DNA from: Gemmatimonadaceae bacterium
Lineage (GTDB): Bacteria > Gemmatimonadota > Gemmatimonadetes > Gemmatimonadales > Gemmatimonadaceae
Length of the DNA: 41,698 bases
Reading direction: 5' to 3'
NCBI GenBank assembly: GCA_013697785.1
Contig: JACCWE010000068.1
Location: forward strand, 1 to 41,698
This document shows, one piece after another, positions 3,265-17,645 of the stretch (position 1 is its first letter; the number at the start of each line of letters is the position of its first letter). The notes beneath the pieces are model-generated. The model had not been told where the DNA came from. It did no database searches and was given only the letters and a program-made list of their open reading frames with translations. Made by a program: the position numbers and the translations under genes.

Positions 3265-4764
3265 TTACCGACGTCCCTTGGCCTTCCCTTTCGCCTTCTC
3301 CGTACTCTTCTGCTTCGCTGCCGCGGCTTTCGCGACGGGCTTTGCAGCCCCGTTCGACGGCGCCGCGTGAGCCGCGTGCTCTCGATCAGACGCCGCGGCG
3401 CCTCCGATCAGTGAGCCCAGCTCGTCGCGCACCTCGCGCTCCGAGACTCCGAGCGTGCGCGCCGTCTCTTCCACGTCGCCGCCCGTCGCCGAGAAGGTGC
3501 GGAGCAGCATCTGCCGCCTTGCATCGGCAAGGGTCGCGCCGACAGTGATGGTAACGGTCGCCTGGCTCGTGTCCGCCTGCGCGCGGAGGCGTCGCGGAAT
3601 GATGTCGGTGGTGCCGATCGACGCACCTTTGGACATGATGACCGCGCTCTCGATCGTATTGCGGAGCTCGCGGACGTTGCCGGGCCAGTTGTGGCGGAGG
3701 ATCCATTCGATCGCGTCGTCCTCGAACGAGTGGATCTTCTTGTTGTTTTCGCGCGAGAAGCGGCTGAGGAATTCCGTGGCGAGGAGCTTTATGTCGCCGA
3801 CACGATCGCGAAGGGGCGGGAGCTCGATCTCGACGACGGCGAGGCGATAGTAGAGATCCTCGCGCAGCTCGCCGTCTTCGAGTGCCTGCTGGAGATTCTT
3901 GTTGGTGGCGGCAACGACGCGGATGTCGACGGGGATCTCCTTCTTGCCGCCCAGGCGCCTCACCGAGCGCGATTCGAGAGCGCGCAGGAGCTTCACCTGA
4001 ATGTCGGTGGCCATCTCGCCGACTTCGTCGAGGAAGAGGGTGCCGCCGTCGGCCATCTCGAAGGCGCCGGGTTTCTCGTTCGTCGAGCCCGTGAAGGCGC
4101 CCTTCTCGTGTCCGAACAGCTCGTTCTCGAGAATGTCCTTGGGAAGCGCGGCGCAGTTGAGCGCGAGGAAGGGCCCTTTCGCGCGATCGCTCTTGTTGTG
4201 GATTGCGCGCGCAACCAGCTCCTTGCCGGTGCCGCTTTCGCCCAGGATGAGGACGGAGGCGGTGGAAGGTGCGACGGCGTCGAGGATGCTGTAGACGGAA
4301 CGCATCGCCTCGGACTGGCCAGTGAGCTCGCCGTAGTGCGTGAGCGTCTGGAGCTCGGTCGTGAGGGCGCGGTTGGCTCGTTTCAGCTCGAAGCTCTCCA
4401 GCGCCTTCTTGATCAGCGCCTTGAGCTCGCTCAGCTTCTCCGCGTTGAGTGGCTTCTCGATGAAGTAGAAGGCGCCGCCATCGGTGACGGCATCGACGGC
4501 GGATCGGATGGTGCCCTGCCCCGAGATGACGATGCATTCGGTTGCCATGCCGCGCTGGCGGATTTCACGGAGGAGCGCGACGCCGTCGACCTTGGGCATC
4601 TTGAGATCCGCGAGGACGACACCGAACGGCTCGGCGATGAGGCGCTGGAGCGCGCGCTCTCCATCGCTGGCGATCTCGGTGTCGTAGCCTTCGTCGCGCA
4701 GAATGGCGCTCAACCCTTCGGTTATCGCGCGTTCGTCGTCGGCGATCAGAATCTTGGCGGTCAT
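3265..4764 (-). CDS. Sigma-54-dependent response regulator (NtrC family)
   Basis: 499-residue activator of sigma-54 promoters. An N-terminal receiver (1-125) has the acidic pair DD at 9-10, phospho-acceptor D53 in LADLKMP, S81 and K104. The AAA+ domain has Walker A GESGTGKE at 175-182, the sigma-54 contact loop GAFTGS at 222-227 (the usual last alanine is serine) and Walker B GGTLFLDEVGEM at 240-251. A Fis-type HTH follows near 430-460 (ETARTLGVSEREV). The protein then ends in an unusual alanine/lysine-rich tail of about 45 residues (KSTEKAKGKAKGRR). Its ATG overlaps the stop of the upstream histidine-kinase-like gene (ATGA), so the two are translationally coupled and presumably form a two-component pair. 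Confidence 0.93.
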   Translation of the reverse strand: MTAKILIADDERAITEGLSAILRDEGYDTEIASDGERALQRLIAEPFGVVLADLKMPKVDGVALLREIRQRGMATECIVISGQGTIRSAVDAVTDGGAFYFIEKPLNAEKLSELKALIKKALESFELKRANRALTTELQTLTHYGELTGQSEAMRSVYSILDAVAPSTASVLILGESGTGKELVARAIHNKSDRAKGPFLALNCAALPKDILENELFGHEKGAFTGSTNEKPGAFEMADGGTLFLDEVGEMATDIQVKLLRALESRSVRRLGGKKEIPVDIRVVAATNKNLQQALEDGELREDLYYRLAVVEIELPPLRDRVGDIKLLATEFLSRFSRENNKKIHSFEDDAIEWILRHNWPGNVRELRNTIESAVIMSKGASIGTTDIIPRRLRAQADTSQATVTITVGATLADARRQMLLRTFSATGGDVEETARTLGVSEREVRDELGSLIGGAAASDREHAAHAAPSNGAAKPVAKAAAAKQKSTEKAKGKAKGRR

Positions 4765-11934: not shown

Positions 11935-12546
11935 TCACTTGGTGGCGTACGCCGGAACCTTCGCGTCTGCCGAGACCGTGAAGCGAATCCACATCCCGCT
12001 CGGCGCATGCCCCGGAACGCCGCACGCGATGACATAGTCCCCGGCCGGCGACGCCTTGAACGTCGTCGCGTCGGTCTTGCCGGTCGAGAGCCCACCGCCG
12101 ACATCGGCGGTGTACGCGCGCGGGATCGCGGGATCCTGCGGCTGCGCGGGGAACGGCATCTTGTTGGGAAGTACGATCGCCGAGTGCGGAATCGCATCTT
12201 CGTTCGTGAAGAGCCAGCTCACCGACCAGCCCACGGGAACGGTGATCGTCGCGTTGCCGCTGAAGCCGCCGTTGAAGTTCATCCCGCCGTTGTTCGAGCC
12301 GTGCGCGGCATTGAGCTTGAGCTTGACTGTCTTTGCCGCGGCGTCGTACGACATGAACTCGTTGACCGTGACGTCCGACGACGGCGCTGCGGGCGCGGCC
12401 GCGACGGTCGCCGGCTTCGGCGCGTGCGTAGCGGGCCTGGACGCGTTGACGTGCTTCTTGGGAGTGACGCCGCCGGAGCCCTGCGCACCGATCGCCGTGC
12501 TCACGAGAAGTGCCGCGCCTACGACTGTCGCACGAATTGCCTGCAT
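11935..12546 (-). CDS. Sulfocyanin-like blue copper protein
   Basis: 203-residue exported type-1 copper electron carrier. A signal peptide (1 to about 21, ending STAIGAQG) is followed by a Pro/Ala linker to about 57 and a cupredoxin domain. The copper ligands are H121 in IPHSAIVL, then C175, H180 and M185 in the ACGVPGHAPSGMW block, spaced C-x4-H-x4-M. The MNFNGGFSG segment before the first ligand is typical of sulfocyanin rather than plastocyanin. Sulfocyanins are thought to pass electrons to terminal heme-copper oxidases; SCO and CtaG homologues upstream support a respiratory role here. GGAG lies 5 nt before the ATG, and a possible promoter lies upstream. Confidence 0.88.
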   Translation of the reverse strand: MQAIRATVVGAALLVSTAIGAQGSGGVTPKKHVNASRPATHAPKPATVAAAPAAPSSDVTVNEFMSYDAAAKTVKLKLNAAHGSNNGGMNFNGGFSGNATITVPVGWSVSWLFTNEDAIPHSAIVLPNKMPFPAQPQDPAIPRAYTADVGGGLSTGKTDATTFKASPAGDYVIACGVPGHAPSGMWIRFTVSADAKVPAYATK

Positions 12547-12647: not shown

Positions 12648-14594
12648 CTACTCGGGCTTCACGCGTTTGAGCGAGTCCAGCGACGCGGTAAGCGAGTCCA
12701 TGTGCCGCTTGCGAGCGTCGATCTCGGCGTGGATCGCTCGCAGCTCCTCGAGGAATTGCGCGTTGTTCGCGGGGGGCGCGGCCGCGGGTGCGGCGGTCAC
12801 CGCGGCGGGCGGTGGACTCGCCGACGTTGACGGTGCGCTGCTCTGCGTGATCGGTGCCTGCGCGATGGGTGGTGCGACTACCGGGTCGCTCGTCATCGGG
12901 TCGCGCGTGACCGGCGTCGCGCGCACGTGCTCCGCCACCGAGATCGAGCGCCGCTCCGGGCGCGGCGTCTGGCGCTTCGGCGTTGGCGTTGACTTCAGCG
13001 CGACGTGCGCGGCCTGCGCGTTCTCGTGCGCGGGCATCGGCGAGAGGCGCGATGACCCTGGTGGCGGTGCGGCGACTGAGCCGCCGTCCTCGTGCTGCGG
13101 CGCACTGTCGACACGCGATGTGGTCGCGACGACAACCGGGTCGTTCCCGCGCGGCGGGCGCACGATCGGCGTCGTGTCGCGCGCCGCTGGCGGGGAGGCG
13201 ACCGCGACAGTCAACGCGGTATCGGCGCGCGCGGCCACTACCGGAGCGGCGAGCGGTGCGCCCGAGCGCTCGATCCCGCTCACGGTGAGCGCGCTCGTGA
13301 GCACCGCAACGAGCAGGCTGCTCGCCAGCATGAGCCCCGCCAGCAGCCAGCGATCGGTGGCGGCGAGCCCCGAGCGCTGCAGCGCGGGAGTCCGGGGCCC
13401 CGTCATCCCCTCATGCGACGCGCGACGCGCGACCCAGGCGTTCGGACGCGCCGACGTGATCTCATCGCGCGGCGACTCGATCTCGACGCGCGCACCGGTG
13501 ATCTCGGTGGAGGCAGAGGTACGCGGGGAATCCGACGGTGGTCGCACTGCGTGTTTGAGCTCCTGCGTCGTGCGCGGGCGAACCGGGGCGACACGCTCGC
13601 GGCGCGCATGCTGTCGCGCGGCCATGTACGCGCGGGGCAGCGCCGCCTTTCGCTGGAGCGCGCGGCGCGGTGCGGTGCGCGACGTCGACTGCAAAATCGA
13701 GCCGGTGTGTACCTCGGGGTGCATCGCGAGTGCCGCGGGCAGCGCCGCCAGAAAGTCGTTCCAGGTGACGTCGGTGGCGTGGCCGTCGGCCGCGGTCGCG
13801 GTCGACACCTCGACGCGGATTGCCGCATCGATGATCTCGCTGTCGGCGCGCGGCGGCTCCATTGCGACAACTGCCTTGCGCGCATCCTGAGCGCTCGAGC
13901 CGCCGACCGCGCCGGCGCATGCGCAGCCGAGATGCGGCGCGAAGTCGATGAGCGTGTTGCCGCGCGTCGTCGTCTGGCTCGCGAGACTCGCGAGTGCGTC
14001 GCCGGCGTGCACGTCGACGAGCGTTCGCTTGGGCCACTGCGCGGCGAGCCACTGCGGCGACGGAACTCCGCCGGGAATCGAGTAGAAGCGGCGGCGATCG
14101 TGCGCGGCGTGCGCTCCGAGATCGGGGCGCTGCGTGGCGGGCATGATCCCGCGCTTCGCGAGGTTGGCGAGCAGCTCGTGCGGTGAGAGGCGCTCGTCGA
14201 TCGTCGCATCATCGGCGCCCGGGCAATCGCCGACGTACGTGATCCGGAGTTCGTCGCCGGGGAACAGTGCGCGCAGGTAGCGCGCGACGGCAACGGGCGG
14301 AGAGATGAGCGGAACGATGAAGCGACGGAGCTCGGTCGCTCCCCGAAGCTGCTCGGCGACGAGGGGGCAGGCGCAGAAGATGGCGGGTCCCGTGCGGCTC
14401 TCGAGCTGTTCGAGGCAGCCCGCGGCAATCAGCTCATCGCCCCACGTCGCCGGAAACACCTCGGCGAAGCCGCCCGCGAAACACGCGTTGGCGAGCTGCG
14501 TTGGCGTTGACGGGAGCGCGACAAGAAGCGCGTCGGCGCCCAGGATTGCTACGGAACGCGACGTCGGTTCGGCTGCCGTTGCTGGGTCGGACAT
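12648..14594 (-). CDS. Membrane protein with an [FeFe]-hydrogenase-like N-terminal domain
   Basis: 648 residues in an unusual layout. Residues about 14-245 follow the C-terminal (H-cluster) domain of [FeFe]-hydrogenase-like proteins: GGFAEVFPATWGDEL, then FCACP (C74, C76), SPPVAVARYLRALF, VGDCPGADD (C124), the DERLSPHELLANLAKRGI block, YSIPGG and HLGCACAGAVGG (C224, C226). The lysine/glutamate of the hydrogenase MPCxxKxxE motif is absent and the third motif is CxC rather than CxxxC, so hydrogen catalysis is unlikely; an iron-sulfur cluster for redox sensing is plausible. A linker leads to one membrane helix at about 416-440, a long Pro/Ala/Thr-rich segment and a final charged coiled coil (about 605-645). 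It sits between ctaG-like and sulfocyanin genes, suggesting a link to respiratory chain assembly or redox state. Confidence 0.75.
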   Translation of the reverse strand: MSDPATAAEPTSRSVAILGADALLVALPSTPTQLANACFAGGFAEVFPATWGDELIAAGCLEQLESRTGPAIFCACPLVAEQLRGATELRRFIVPLISPPVAVARYLRALFPGDELRITYVGDCPGADDATIDERLSPHELLANLAKRGIMPATQRPDLGAHAAHDRRRFYSIPGGVPSPQWLAAQWPKRTLVDVHAGDALASLASQTTTRGNTLIDFAPHLGCACAGAVGGSSAQDARKAVVAMEPPRADSEIIDAAIRVEVSTATAADGHATDVTWNDFLAALPAALAMHPEVHTGSILQSTSRTAPRRALQRKAALPRAYMAARQHARRERVAPVRPRTTQELKHAVRPPSDSPRTSASTEITGARVEIESPRDEITSARPNAWVARRASHEGMTGPRTPALQRSGLAATDRWLLAGLMLASSLLVAVLTSALTVSGIERSGAPLAAPVVAARADTALTVAVASPPAARDTTPIVRPPRGNDPVVVATTSRVDSAPQHEDGGSVAAPPPGSSRLSPMPAHENAQAAHVALKSTPTPKRQTPRPERRSISVAEHVRATPVTRDPMTSDPVVAPPIAQAPITQSSAPSTSASPPPAAVTAAPAAAPPANNAQFLEELRAIHAEIDARKRHMDSLTASLDSLKRVKPE

Positions 14595-14675: not shown

Positions 14676-15494
14676 TCACGCTTCTGGCTGCGGCTCCGCG
14701 AACCAGCGGAAGAAGAGCACGGAGATCACCGCGAGCACGTACGTCCCACCTATTGTGAGCAGAAGCCCACCCGCGACTTGTTGATCTTCCAGGGCAGACA
14801 ATCGGGTGACTCGGGGGGCAAGCTCATAGATGCCGTAGGCGGGGAATTCGGCGAGCAGCAGCCACATCGAGAGGTAGAGGTGGGCCTGCGTTCCCGCAAA
14901 GAGGTAGAGCATGCGCATCGGTGGTCCGAAGCGCTCGCGGAGCGGAACGTCGATCACCACCGGCCACCAGAATGTGAGTCCCGATAAGAACCACGCGAGA
15001 TCGAGCGCGAAGGCGCCGAGCTGCGAGCGCATGAGCGTGTCGACGACACCGGGTGCGTGCGTCGCCAGCATCACGATGGTGAAGGCGAGCATTGCGAACA
15101 GCGGCGTCGTAACCGCGGTGATGATCTTCGCCGCGATGCCATTTCGAGCGAGAAACGCCCGGATGCGATTACCGTCGATACCGCGAAGGAGCAGCGGCGG
15201 CGCGATCATCGCGAGGGCGAGAAACTGCGCAGCGTGGACGCTCGAGAGGTAGCCGGTGCCAAGTGGGCCGCCGGGCCAGTCGAGCGAGGCCCAGACGAGC
15301 GCGACACCGATCCATCCGCCCACGCGACGGCCCTCGCTCACCGCATTCGGGTGCGAAGTGCTTTCACCGTTCGGTCGCGACCAGCGAGCGTACGCCGCGC
15401 CGAGAGCGAGTACCGCGATCCACACACCCGGATATGCCTGCCAGCTCCAGCGCCACGGTATGCCGCGGGCCGAGCACCACCACTGCACGCTCAT
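14676..15494 (-). CDS. ctaG: CtaG (caa3-type) cytochrome c oxidase assembly factor
   Basis: 272-residue integral membrane protein with about seven hydrophobic segments. It matches the CtaG_Caa3 family, which aids copper delivery or assembly of heme-copper oxidases in bacteria such as Bacillus. Features seen include SVHAAQFLALAMIAPPLLLRG, the LDLAWFLSGLTFWWPV segment and GTQAHLYLSMWLLL. The ATG at 15494 is 4 bp after the SCO gene stop, so the two are almost certainly cotranscribed. No oxidase subunit genes are in the window. Confidence 0.85.
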   Translation of the reverse strand: MSVQWWCSARGIPWRWSWQAYPGVWIAVLALGAAYARWSRPNGESTSHPNAVSEGRRVGGWIGVALVWASLDWPGGPLGTGYLSSVHAAQFLALAMIAPPLLLRGIDGNRIRAFLARNGIAAKIITAVTTPLFAMLAFTIVMLATHAPGVVDTLMRSQLGAFALDLAWFLSGLTFWWPVVIDVPLRERFGPPMRMLYLFAGTQAHLYLSMWLLLAEFPAYGIYELAPRVTRLSALEDQQVAGGLLLTIGGTYVLAVISVLFFRWFAEPQPEA

Positions 15495-15498
15495 GCGC

Positions 15499-16125
15499 TC
15501 ACTTCACCTTCGCGAGGAGCGGGAGATCGTGCGCCCAGTCGGCCTGTCGCGTGCCGAACGGATAAACGACGTGCGCGCTGTCATCGCGCGTGAAGGCGAG
15601 CACCTGCGCCGCGTGCCCGACCTCGTATGCGCCGGCGGAGTCGGGCGCGGCCGCCACCGCGGGTGCGACGTCGACCATCTTCTCGATTGCCTTGATCTGC
15701 TCCGGAGTTCCGCGGAGCCCGACGAACGACGGGTCGAATCCAGCGAGCCATGCGTGCAACTTCTCGGGTGTGTCACGAGCGGGATCCGTCGTCACGAAAA
15801 CGACGCGAATCTTCCCGGTGACCTCGTACGGAAGACCGCGCATGACGGTCGCGATGTTGGAGAGGTGAACCGGGCAGACGTCGGGACAGCTCAGGTAGCC
15901 GAAGAAGAGGAGGGTGACCGTGTCGTCGGTCTGCGCGCGAAAATCGAACGGCTGGCCGTGCGTGTCCGTGAGCGTGAAGCTCGGGCGCGGCACCGCTTTG
16001 CCGAGCATCGCGCCGCGGTACGCGCTCCCGCCGCTCTCCGCGCTGATACCGCAGCCCGCGATAGCGAGCATCTCGATCAGGATGACCATCGAGGTGCGCA
16101 AGCGGCGCGGCGGGGAGTAAGTCAC
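15499..16125 (-). CDS. SCO1/SenC-family copper chaperone
   Basis: 208-residue thioredoxin-fold protein that delivers copper to the CuA site of cytochrome c oxidase or maintains its thiols. Copper ligands are visible: C80 and C84 in YLSCPDVCPVHL and H171 in EVGHAAQVL. The N-terminus carries a hydrophobic stretch and a lipobox IAGC (C25), so it is probably a lipoprotein facing the periplasm. The start is uncertain: GTG at 16125 is used, while ATG at 16089 would give a shorter signal peptide; neither has a strong ribosome binding site. It is followed at 4 bp by the ctaG-like gene. Confidence 0.9.
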   Translation of the reverse strand: MTYSPPRRLRTSMVILIEMLAIAGCGISAESGGSAYRGAMLGKAVPRPSFTLTDTHGQPFDFRAQTDDTVTLLFFGYLSCPDVCPVHLSNIATVMRGLPYEVTGKIRVVFVTTDPARDTPEKLHAWLAGFDPSFVGLRGTPEQIKAIEKMVDVAPAVAAAPDSAGAYEVGHAAQVLAFTRDDSAHVVYPFGTRQADWAHDLPLLAKVK

Positions 16126-16168: not shown

Positions 16169-16423
16169 TCAGGCGGCCCCAGCTCGCGGCTGACTCATCA
16201 GGTCGAGCAGCGTGGCGTCGCCCAGCGCGAGCCAGTCGGCGGGATAGTACCAGAAGCGGCGGCAGATCGACTGGCTGTCGAAGACGAGACAGGTGGCGCT
16301 CATGGCGCCCGGGACGTCGCGCGCGTCATGCTCGGCGATCTGCCAGAGCACGCCGGTATTGTCGCGAATCGTTCGTCGGTGAAGTGCCAGACTGCTGGAC
16401 AACTGAGCTCCATGGGCGCTCAC
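16169..16423 (-). CDS. Small protein of unknown function
   Basis: 84 residues, not assigned to a named family. The C-terminal half, CLVFDSQSICRRFWYYP followed by ADWLALGDATLLDLM, looks conserved and resembles small uncharacterised proteins I associate with Gemmatimonadota; this link is from memory and unverified. There is no signal peptide or membrane segment, so it should be cytosolic. AGG lies 6 nt before the GTG at 16423. It sits between the Crp-family operon and the SCO gene. Confidence 0.6.
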   Translation of the reverse strand: MSAHGAQLSSSLALHRRTIRDNTGVLWQIAEHDARDVPGAMSATCLVFDSQSICRRFWYYPADWLALGDATLLDLMSQPRAGAA

Positions 16424-16512: not shown

Positions 16513-16914
16513 TCAGGACGGCAGCTGGTCGCGATCCCCATAGTACTCCTCTATACACGTGCTCACGATCTCGCTGAGTCGCTCGGCGGTGCGCGTCGAG
16601 AGCATCGACGGAATCGACATCCAGATCTGCTTGACATCGATGAGGACGTGCTCGGCACGCACGCCTTGCAGTCGCGCCTTGGCGCAGGCGATGCGAATCG
16701 ACTTGCGCAGCTCGTCGTCGATCGCGATTTCACCCGAGGCGCTCATCTCTCCTTCGCAGAGCGAGCGCTCGATAGCGGCGCGAAGCTCTTCGATATCATC
16801 CGCTGCGAGGTGGGATTCTCCGCGCGAGCGCGCGACTCGATCACGAGCGCGAGGTGCGCCGTCGGTGGAATCGAGCGAGAAATGCGTGCCCTGTCCGTCC
16901 CTCTTTCCGGCCAT
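16513..16914 (-). CDS. Hypothetical protein downstream of crp-family gene
   Basis: 133 residues, no recognised domain. The first 45 residues are polar and basic; residues about 45-130 are predicted mostly helical and charged, with the segment RIACAKARLQGVRAEHVLID followed by KQIWMS and a C-terminal amphipathic helix. The ATG at 16914 is 5 bp after the stop of the Crp/Fnr gene, so cotranscription is very likely. A longer start inside the Crp gene is possible but would overlap it by about 50 bp. The function may be linked to the response controlled by that regulator. Confidence 0.65.
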   Translation of the reverse strand: MAGKRDGQGTHFSLDSTDGAPRARDRVARSRGESHLAADDIEELRAAIERSLCEGEMSASGEIAIDDELRKSIRIACAKARLQGVRAEHVLIDVKQIWMSIPSMLSTRTAERLSEIVSTCIEEYYGDRDQLPS

Positions 16915-16919
16915 GCGCG

Positions 16920-17645
16920 CTAGCTCGCGAGCTTCGCGTAGTCGTCGCGGGTCGCCTGATAGCAGCTGCACGACGCGCCCTCGAGCCCCGGGCGATTGAG
17001 AACGACGATGTTGCCGCGTGAGTAGCGGATCAAGCCCGCCTCCTGCAGAATCCCCGCTGCGAGCGTCACCGCGGGGCGATGCACGCCGAGCATGTACGAG
17101 AGGAACTCCTGCGTGAGCTTGAATTCATCGCCATCGACGCGATCGTGCGTAATGAGAAGCCAGCGCGCGCAGCGCTCTTCGAGCGAATGAAGCCGATTGC
17201 ACGCCACGGACTGCGCGACCTGATTGAAGAGCGCCATCGCATAGCGCAGGAAGATACGCTCCATGTGCTTGCTCTCCGATACGACCTGCATGAAGGCGTT
17301 CGCGGAGATACGGTACCCTTCTCCGAGTACCTGCACCAGCGCACGCGTCGGCTCCGATTCGGCGCGCAGGAGAATGGGCACGCCGACGAATCCTTCCATG
17401 CCGATGGTTCCGACCTCCACCGAGCCGTCGGGAGTCCCGTGGATCATGGAAACGCACCCCGTCGTTGGGAAATAGATGTGCTCGATCGCGACGCCCGGTT
17501 CGTAGAGCACCTCACGCACCGTGAGCGTAACGGACTCAAGCTGGGCCGAGATGAGGGTAAGATCGTCGGGCGCGAGCGCAGCGAGAAGCAAATTCGCGGC
17601 TGCGGGGCGCGCAATCGCCGGCGGCGACTTGAGCTTGAGAGTCAT
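16920..17645 (-). CDS. Crp/Fnr-family transcriptional regulator
   Basis: 241 residues. A cyclic-nucleotide-binding beta-barrel occupies about 20-130 (VLYEPGVAIEHIYFPTTGCV, GTIGMEGFVGVP), a dimerisation helix runs to about 155, and a C-terminal winged HTH lies at about 178-215 (TQEFLSYMLGVHRPAV, then AGLIRYSRGNIVV). The FNR-type N-terminal iron-sulfur cysteines are absent, and the cAMP-contact residues of E. coli Crp are not obvious, so the signal is unknown. Two cysteines, C226 and C228 (SCSCY), lie near the C-terminus. AAAGGGGA precedes the ATG at 17645. An inverted repeat about 144 bp upstream could be an operator. Confidence 0.9.
   Translation of the reverse strand: MTLKLKSPPAIARPAAANLLLAALAPDDLTLISAQLESVTLTVREVLYEPGVAIEHIYFPTTGCVSMIHGTPDGSVEVGTIGMEGFVGVPILLRAESEPTRALVQVLGEGYRISANAFMQVVSESKHMERIFLRYAMALFNQVAQSVACNRLHSLEERCARWLLITHDRVDGDEFKLTQEFLSYMLGVHRPAVTLAAGILQEAGLIRYSRGNIVVLNRPGLEGASCSCYQATRDDYAKLAS

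Follow-up and report, generated by a model that had tools for sequence, protein, structure and literature searches.

A maturase-free domain related to [FeFe] hydrogenases in a predicted membrane-anchored protein of Gemmatimonadaceae: a candidate iron-sulfur sensor

Results

Layout of the gene and its product

We have analysed a stretch of 41,698 nucleotides from Gemmatimonadaceae bacterium (contig JACCWE010000068.1), hereafter the window, focusing on one gene whose 648-residue product begins with a domain resembling the H-cluster domain (H-domain) of [FeFe] hydrogenases. The features of the locus are collected in Table 1. An earlier note, made from the sequence alone, described this domain as fused to one membrane helix, a long Pro/Ala-rich region and a coiled coil. 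The helix and the Pro/Ala-rich region are indeed present, and the latter probably lies outside the cytoplasm. The coiled coil stands as a heptad-like pattern in the C-terminal helix, to which no dedicated coiled-coil predictor was applied. In addition, a scan against Pfam and NCBIfam has found no ferredoxin-type, FeS or recognisable output domain in the protein, in agreement with that note as regards the ferredoxin-type domains.

Table 1 Features of the gene and its neighbours in the window
Feature	Position	Strand	Basis or remark
Whole gene, 648 amino acids	12648..14594	-	ATG start, no internal stops; translation of the open reading frame (ORF), orthologues
H-cluster-like domain, residues ~12-265	13800..14561	-	Profile matches, dN/dS
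L1-equivalent motif C74-A-C76-P	14367..14375	-	C76 invariant; C74 in 32/37
L2-equivalent cysteine C124, reads GDCPGA	14223..14225	-	AKK of PCxAKK absent
L3-equivalent motif C224-A-C226	13917..13925	-	Alignment of family motifs
Basic linker motif LPRAYMAAR, residues 319-327	13614..13640	-	Pattern listing
Membrane helix, residues 417-435	13290..13346	-	Hydropathy; mean 2.14, one strong hydrophobic segment
Pro/Ala/Ser/Thr-rich stretch, residues 436-605	12780..13289	-	Composition; weakly constrained
Conserved C-terminal helix, residues 606-648	12651..12779	-	dN/dS; also retained by genus g22 and by the G001 orthologue without the H-like domain
Sulfocyanin, downstream neighbour	11935..12546	-	PF06525 E 1e-27
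CtaG (Caa3_CtaG), upstream neighbour	14676..15494	-	PF09678 E 4e-34
SCO1/SenC, upstream neighbour	15499..16125	-	PF02630 E 2e-30

Among the 35 members of the window protein's family with a readable C-terminus, 18 carry a membrane helix; it lies at the very end of the protein or, as here, inside it and followed by a long tail. Many members share the pattern LPRAY-x-A/x-R in a basic linker that otherwise differs between them.

Homology to the H-domain

Relatives are named below by taxonomic family: f1 is that of the window protein, f2 is another family of the same order, and f7, f9 and f11 are other families of Gemmatimonadota. Taken alone, the window protein gives no direct match in Pfam, NCBIfam or the PDB sequences, while 35 of 60 related genomes hold a match to it. 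Among the matches listed, the homologous region of the f2 proteins is ~27–38% identical to the window protein. These f2 homologues are ~580 amino acids long and combine ferredoxin-type [4Fe-4S] motifs, PF02906, the Fe-S domain PF04060 and GGDEF; the PF02906 E values of three of them are 1e-16, 3e-18 and 1e-7. The profile of the window family aligns with the f2 profile over the whole domain (E 2.1e-36), and the best PDB matches of the f2 profile are Fe-hydrogenases (top E 4e-4). The f2 bridge is not needed: the window-family profile, made from 37 sequences, also matches one built from HydA and sensory hydrogenase sequences of the phylum (E 1.5e-12), in an alignment that spans residues 32-162, with L1 and L2 inside and L3 outside. 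Searched individually, other members of the family score above the PF02906 cut-off, e.g., that of genome G025 at 1.1e-8. Against PDB sequences, seven of the eight matches of window-family profile A1 are Fe-hydrogenases, at E values (0.18–0.55) that are not significant. Overall, the N-terminal domain has almost certainly descended from the H-domain of [FeFe] hydrogenases, as the earlier note proposed. An AlphaFold2 model from seven sequences (predicted local distance difference test, pLDDT, 43; predicted template modelling score 0.44) gave no Foldseek match at E <= 0.001, and is too poor to bear on the fold.

The cysteine site

The earlier note placed five cysteines at the motif positions, namely C74, C76, C124, C224 and C226. 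The positions are correct, and all except C74 are invariant, both in 19 members of the window family whose divergence reaches 36–39% identity at the extremes and in the wider set (37/37). C76 corresponds in the alignments to the L1 cysteine found before a proline in the sensory enzymes, C124 to that of L2, and C224 to the second of the L3 cysteines. The altered L2 and L3 motifs reported before are also real: GDCPGA stands for PCxAKK, the lysine motif that the HydA and HydS of the phylum possess, and H222, a variable position in relatives, occupies the place of the first L3 cysteine. C226 is non-canonical and particular to the window family. That is, the window protein keeps three of the four canonical cysteine positions of the [4Fe-4S]H cluster. 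It has two further cysteines, C38 and C60, of which C38 (14481-14483), outside the cluster motifs, is conserved in 32 of 36 proteins across f1 and f2, including proteins without the cluster cysteines.

Maturases

Maturases were called by model cut-offs, HydF across 395 Gemmatimonadota genomes, and HydE and HydG in the window genome. In the latter (3.81 Mb, rated 100% complete) HydG, HydF and HydE all give no match over the cut-off, so that the absence of maturases noted before extends to the whole genome; the control genome of Thermotoga maritima is among the matches of the search. Across the phylum, only G060 and G065 have HydF over the cut-off, and HydA-grade PF02906 matches (E ~1e-95) occur in just these two genomes. 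None of the other 113 genomes with an H-like domain (31 in f1, 64 in f2 and 18 in f7/f9) has HydF over the cut-off. Nearly every genome gives HydF-model matches of ~E 1e-23, which we have discarded as they are far below the cut-off and also occur in all 14 control genomes; they are presumably related GTPases. In G060 and G065 (L094, L095), HydA adjoins a ferredoxin/H-domain/FeS/histidine-kinase protein, an intact-looking pair of hydrogenase and sensory kinase.

Distribution and loss of the site in the phylum

The homologous H-like domain has been found in 115 of the 395 genomes, and a single pattern-based scan of the GTDB collection returned six loci, all from Gemmatimonadota. The proteins form a series. 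In f11 there is a hydrogenase-type sensory protein with a kinase; most f2 proteins have four cysteines and a GGDEF domain; GGDEF proteins of f7, f9 and one f2 clade are cysteine-free. The N-terminal ferredoxin and C-terminal FeS domains of sensory hydrogenases are found in the f2 and f11 relatives, while the window's family is without the ferredoxin, FeS and GGDEF parts and has one L3 cysteine moved.

In the 76 proteins counted, the L1 and L2 cysteines and at least two L3 cysteines are kept in 37 of 37 from f1, 14 of 22 from f2 and the two from f11. In the other 23 (8 from f2, 9 from f7 and 6 from f9) the L1 and L3 cysteines are lost; 22 of these have no cysteine at the site positions, and one (L069) has a stray L2 cysteine. 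On a maximum-likelihood tree of 69 rows two changes are needed to explain the cysteine-free state, and both remain necessary when only well-supported branches are counted. The site has thus been lost at least twice, separately, in sister lineages. Loss in step is expected if all the cysteines serve one shared site, which speaks for their co-dependence and not for the identity of a cofactor. Since the tree is midpoint-rooted and the f11 branch is long, the order of the steps in the series is an inferred one. The cysteine-poor ferredoxin/H-domain/FeS/GGDEF loci, with an H-domain that is otherwise conserved, are L066, L068, L069, L071-L074 and L127 in f2, L110-L118 in f7, and L096, L097, L101 and L119-L121 in f9.

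Selection on the gene

We have calculated the ratio of non-synonymous to synonymous substitution rates (dN/dS) between congeneric orthologues, with synonymous sites near saturation in some comparisons. The ratio is ~0.07–0.10 for the H-domain and 0.05–0.13 for the C-terminal helix, and 0.27–0.48 for the linker, membrane and Pro-rich parts. Purifying selection acts on the gene, and the low values at both ends with higher ones in the rest indicate two constrained modules joined by a loose tether. A chance ORF is ruled out by these ratios together with the orthologues in the genus and the occurrence of the domain in the phylum.

The congeneric genome G001 has, at the corresponding locus, an orthologue (L038:7727-8635, G001:C13) that encodes 302 amino acids, with residues ~20-275 absent by an apparent in-frame deletion and the membrane helix, the Pro-rich part and the C-terminal helix remaining. 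A second gene elsewhere in G001 (L039) retains the H-like domain. If that contig is correct, the modules are separable.

Gene neighbourhood and paralogue

As had been stated, the gene lies between ctaG-like and sulfocyanin genes. The order SCO, CtaG, window gene, sulfocyanin is on one strand with successive gaps of 4, 81 and 101 bases. The earlier note suggested from this setting a redox or oxygen sensor coupled to terminal oxidase assembly. While a sensory role is plausible in view of the signalling relatives, the coupling is poorly supported, and a survey of the homologues' neighbourhoods for SCO, CtaG and sulfocyanin gives it little backing. CtaG and SCO adjoin the gene in one genus only (g1), and sulfocyanin does so in g1 and g22 (G025, G364). 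At the g22 locus other genes are conserved as well, e.g., a transglutaminase-like gene, so the adjacency of sulfocyanin may reflect general synteny. Moreover, the window genome has a second copy (contig C76) with the same four cysteines, beside a Crp-like regulator and other genes, at a locus that recurs across the family; no copper genes have been found near it. Because of this distribution the link to oxidase assembly is weak, and it is unlikely that the protein works specifically with the neighbouring sulfocyanin and oxidase genes. Likewise, the copper neighbourhood has been rejected as proof of function, since paralogues share the cysteines without copper genes and local synteny is generally conserved.

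Among 25 f1 genomes scanned, all six with sulfocyanin hold an H-like domain somewhere, several of the six being close kin; in one of them, G001, it is present only in the paralogue. Two short ORFs on the minus strand (16169-16423 and 16513-16971), neither with a Pfam match, lie between SCO and a Crp-like gene, which the second overlaps.

Discussion

The window protein is not a hydrogenase, and its domain very probably holds no [2Fe]H. We lean, with modest confidence, towards a maturase-free, Nar1-like domain that has been recycled from a sensory hydrogenase and acts as a membrane-tethered iron-sulfur (Fe-S) redox or oxygen sensor-regulator. In this proposal, the H-domain would stem from a sensory-type [FeFe] hydrogenase and would have been left without its maturation system, its L2 lysine motif and the accompanying ferredoxin and accessory Fe-S domains. 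What was the [4Fe-4S]H site would now bind a single [4Fe-4S] cluster through the four invariant cysteines, with C226 replacing the first L3 ligand, and the domain would face the cytoplasm on its one-helix tether. When the cluster is gained, lost or changed in redox state, the way in which the linker and helix parts engage a partner may then alter, where stimulus, output and partner are all conjectural. Judging from the cysteine pattern, binding of an Fe-S cluster is likely, and the assignment of a single [4Fe-4S] is supported, by analogy, by the likeness to Nar1. That the protein senses or regulates, rather than carrying clusters or serving as a mere scaffold, seems to us somewhat the better guess. 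What makes a sensory role plausible is that, in the closest relatives of full length, the domain is joined to a diguanylate cyclase or a histidine kinase.

On the other hand, several observations weigh against this reading. The protein has no recognisable output domain, about half of the window family has no membrane helix, and the protein is absent from many Gemmatimonadaceae. One congener (G001) has lost the whole domain and yet kept the remainder. One of the four invariant cysteines is off the canonical position, therefore the geometry of the cluster is unproven, and the predicted structure is not usable.

Groups C and D of [FeFe] hydrogenases are proposed sensors (PMC8924675, PMC13104023), and TmHydS has an alanine at the position of the proton-relay cysteine C299 (PMC10055695). 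With these groups (TmHydS, TamHydS) the window protein shares an H-domain with L1, L2 and L3 cysteine motifs, A75 corresponding to the TmHydS alanine, and, through its nearest relatives, a signalling context. It differs in that it is without the N-terminal ferredoxin clusters, the C-terminal [4Fe-4S] or PAS domain, the maturases and the L2 lysine motif; its first L3 cysteine is replaced by a downstream one, and a membrane anchor is added. Nar1 has retained the site of the H-domain but not [2Fe]H, and O2 rapidly destroys two of its clusters (PMC12621388). What Nar1/IOP1/CIAO3 and NARF have in common with the window protein is an H-domain without maturases in the genome, and a [4Fe-4S]H-type site without [2Fe]H (PMC12621388), the cluster being predicted here. 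In contrast to them, the window protein carries a membrane helix in its C-terminal part, its L3 is rearranged, and it has no N-terminal site for a second, ferredoxin-like cluster. The likeness refers to the H-domain. The nearest full-length relatives are the ferredoxin/H-domain/FeS/GGDEF proteins of f2, f7 and f9, for which we have found no name in the libraries searched. They are HydF-less too, but have a diguanylate cyclase output, an L3 that is CEGC or cysteine-free, and no membrane anchor that we could see.

Alternatively, the protein may be an Fe-S carrier or scaffold that, at the membrane, takes up a labile cluster and passes it on, e.g., to a respiratory Fe-S protein. Nar1, the best studied H-domain without [2Fe]H, has a proposed role in cluster trafficking (PMC12621388), and respiratory neighbours and the want of an output domain would suit such a role. 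However, the nearest relatives are signalling proteins, the neighbours are copper and not Fe-S proteins, and the patchy presence in the family is ill-suited to a general assembly factor, so we regard a carrier as quite unlikely. About equally unlikely is a cofactor-free scaffold that makes protein contacts only, its cysteines being structural leftovers. Sister lineages keep the domain under constraint without any site cysteine, and therefore a metal-free role is possible for the fold; in the window family, however, the four cysteines are invariant even at the extremes of divergence, and one has been relocated, not lost. A slightly poorer candidate still is a metal-handling or structural module whose cysteines are ligands of Zn or Cu(I), or are paired in disulfides. 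The CxC pairs, C224-x-C226 with its shifted L3 ligand and, in most members, C74-x-C76, would permit this, and a copper site would fit SCO, CtaG and sulfocyanin adjacent in the source genus. But paralogous copies with the same cysteines have no copper genes found nearby, C76, C124 and C224 are still at canonical Fe-S ligand positions, and the domain is predicted to be cytoplasmic while SCO and sulfocyanin act outside. The ancestry of the domain speaks for a functional hydrogenase or an H2 sensor carrying a complete H-cluster, but this is rejected as extremely improbable, since no maturase passes the cut-off in a genome rated 100% complete and both the L2 lysine motif and the first L3 cysteine are gone.

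H-domains without [2Fe]H are known from the eukaryotic Nar1 and NARF (PMC12621388), and in a narrow search of the open-access literature we have found no bacterial counterpart. Gemmatimonadota may, as a tentative proposal that falls a little short of even chances, represent a bacterial maturase-free branch of H-domains, in which H2 sensing has given way to redox or O2 sensing with [4Fe-4S] alone, besides at least two metal-free lineages. In this branch the domain would be linked to cyclic di-GMP (c-di-GMP) in one family and membrane-anchored in another, as a prokaryotic parallel to eukaryotic Nar1. The relatives would then record how a hydrogenase has been turned stepwise into something else. 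A series within one phylum, comprising a kinase, a four-cysteine GGDEF protein, a cysteine-free GGDEF protein and a membrane-anchored protein with a rearranged site, would offer a test of what H-domains sense once H2 chemistry is gone, and of whether O2 or redox control via a former [4Fe-4S]H cluster has evolved repeatedly.

A further observation concerns f2. In most f2 genomes, a response regulator of sigma-54-activator type, homologous to the product of window positions 3265-4764, is encoded close upstream of the H-domain/GGDEF gene (13 loci, L061-L064 and L066-L074, often within ~120 bases), hinting that the two form one signalling unit.
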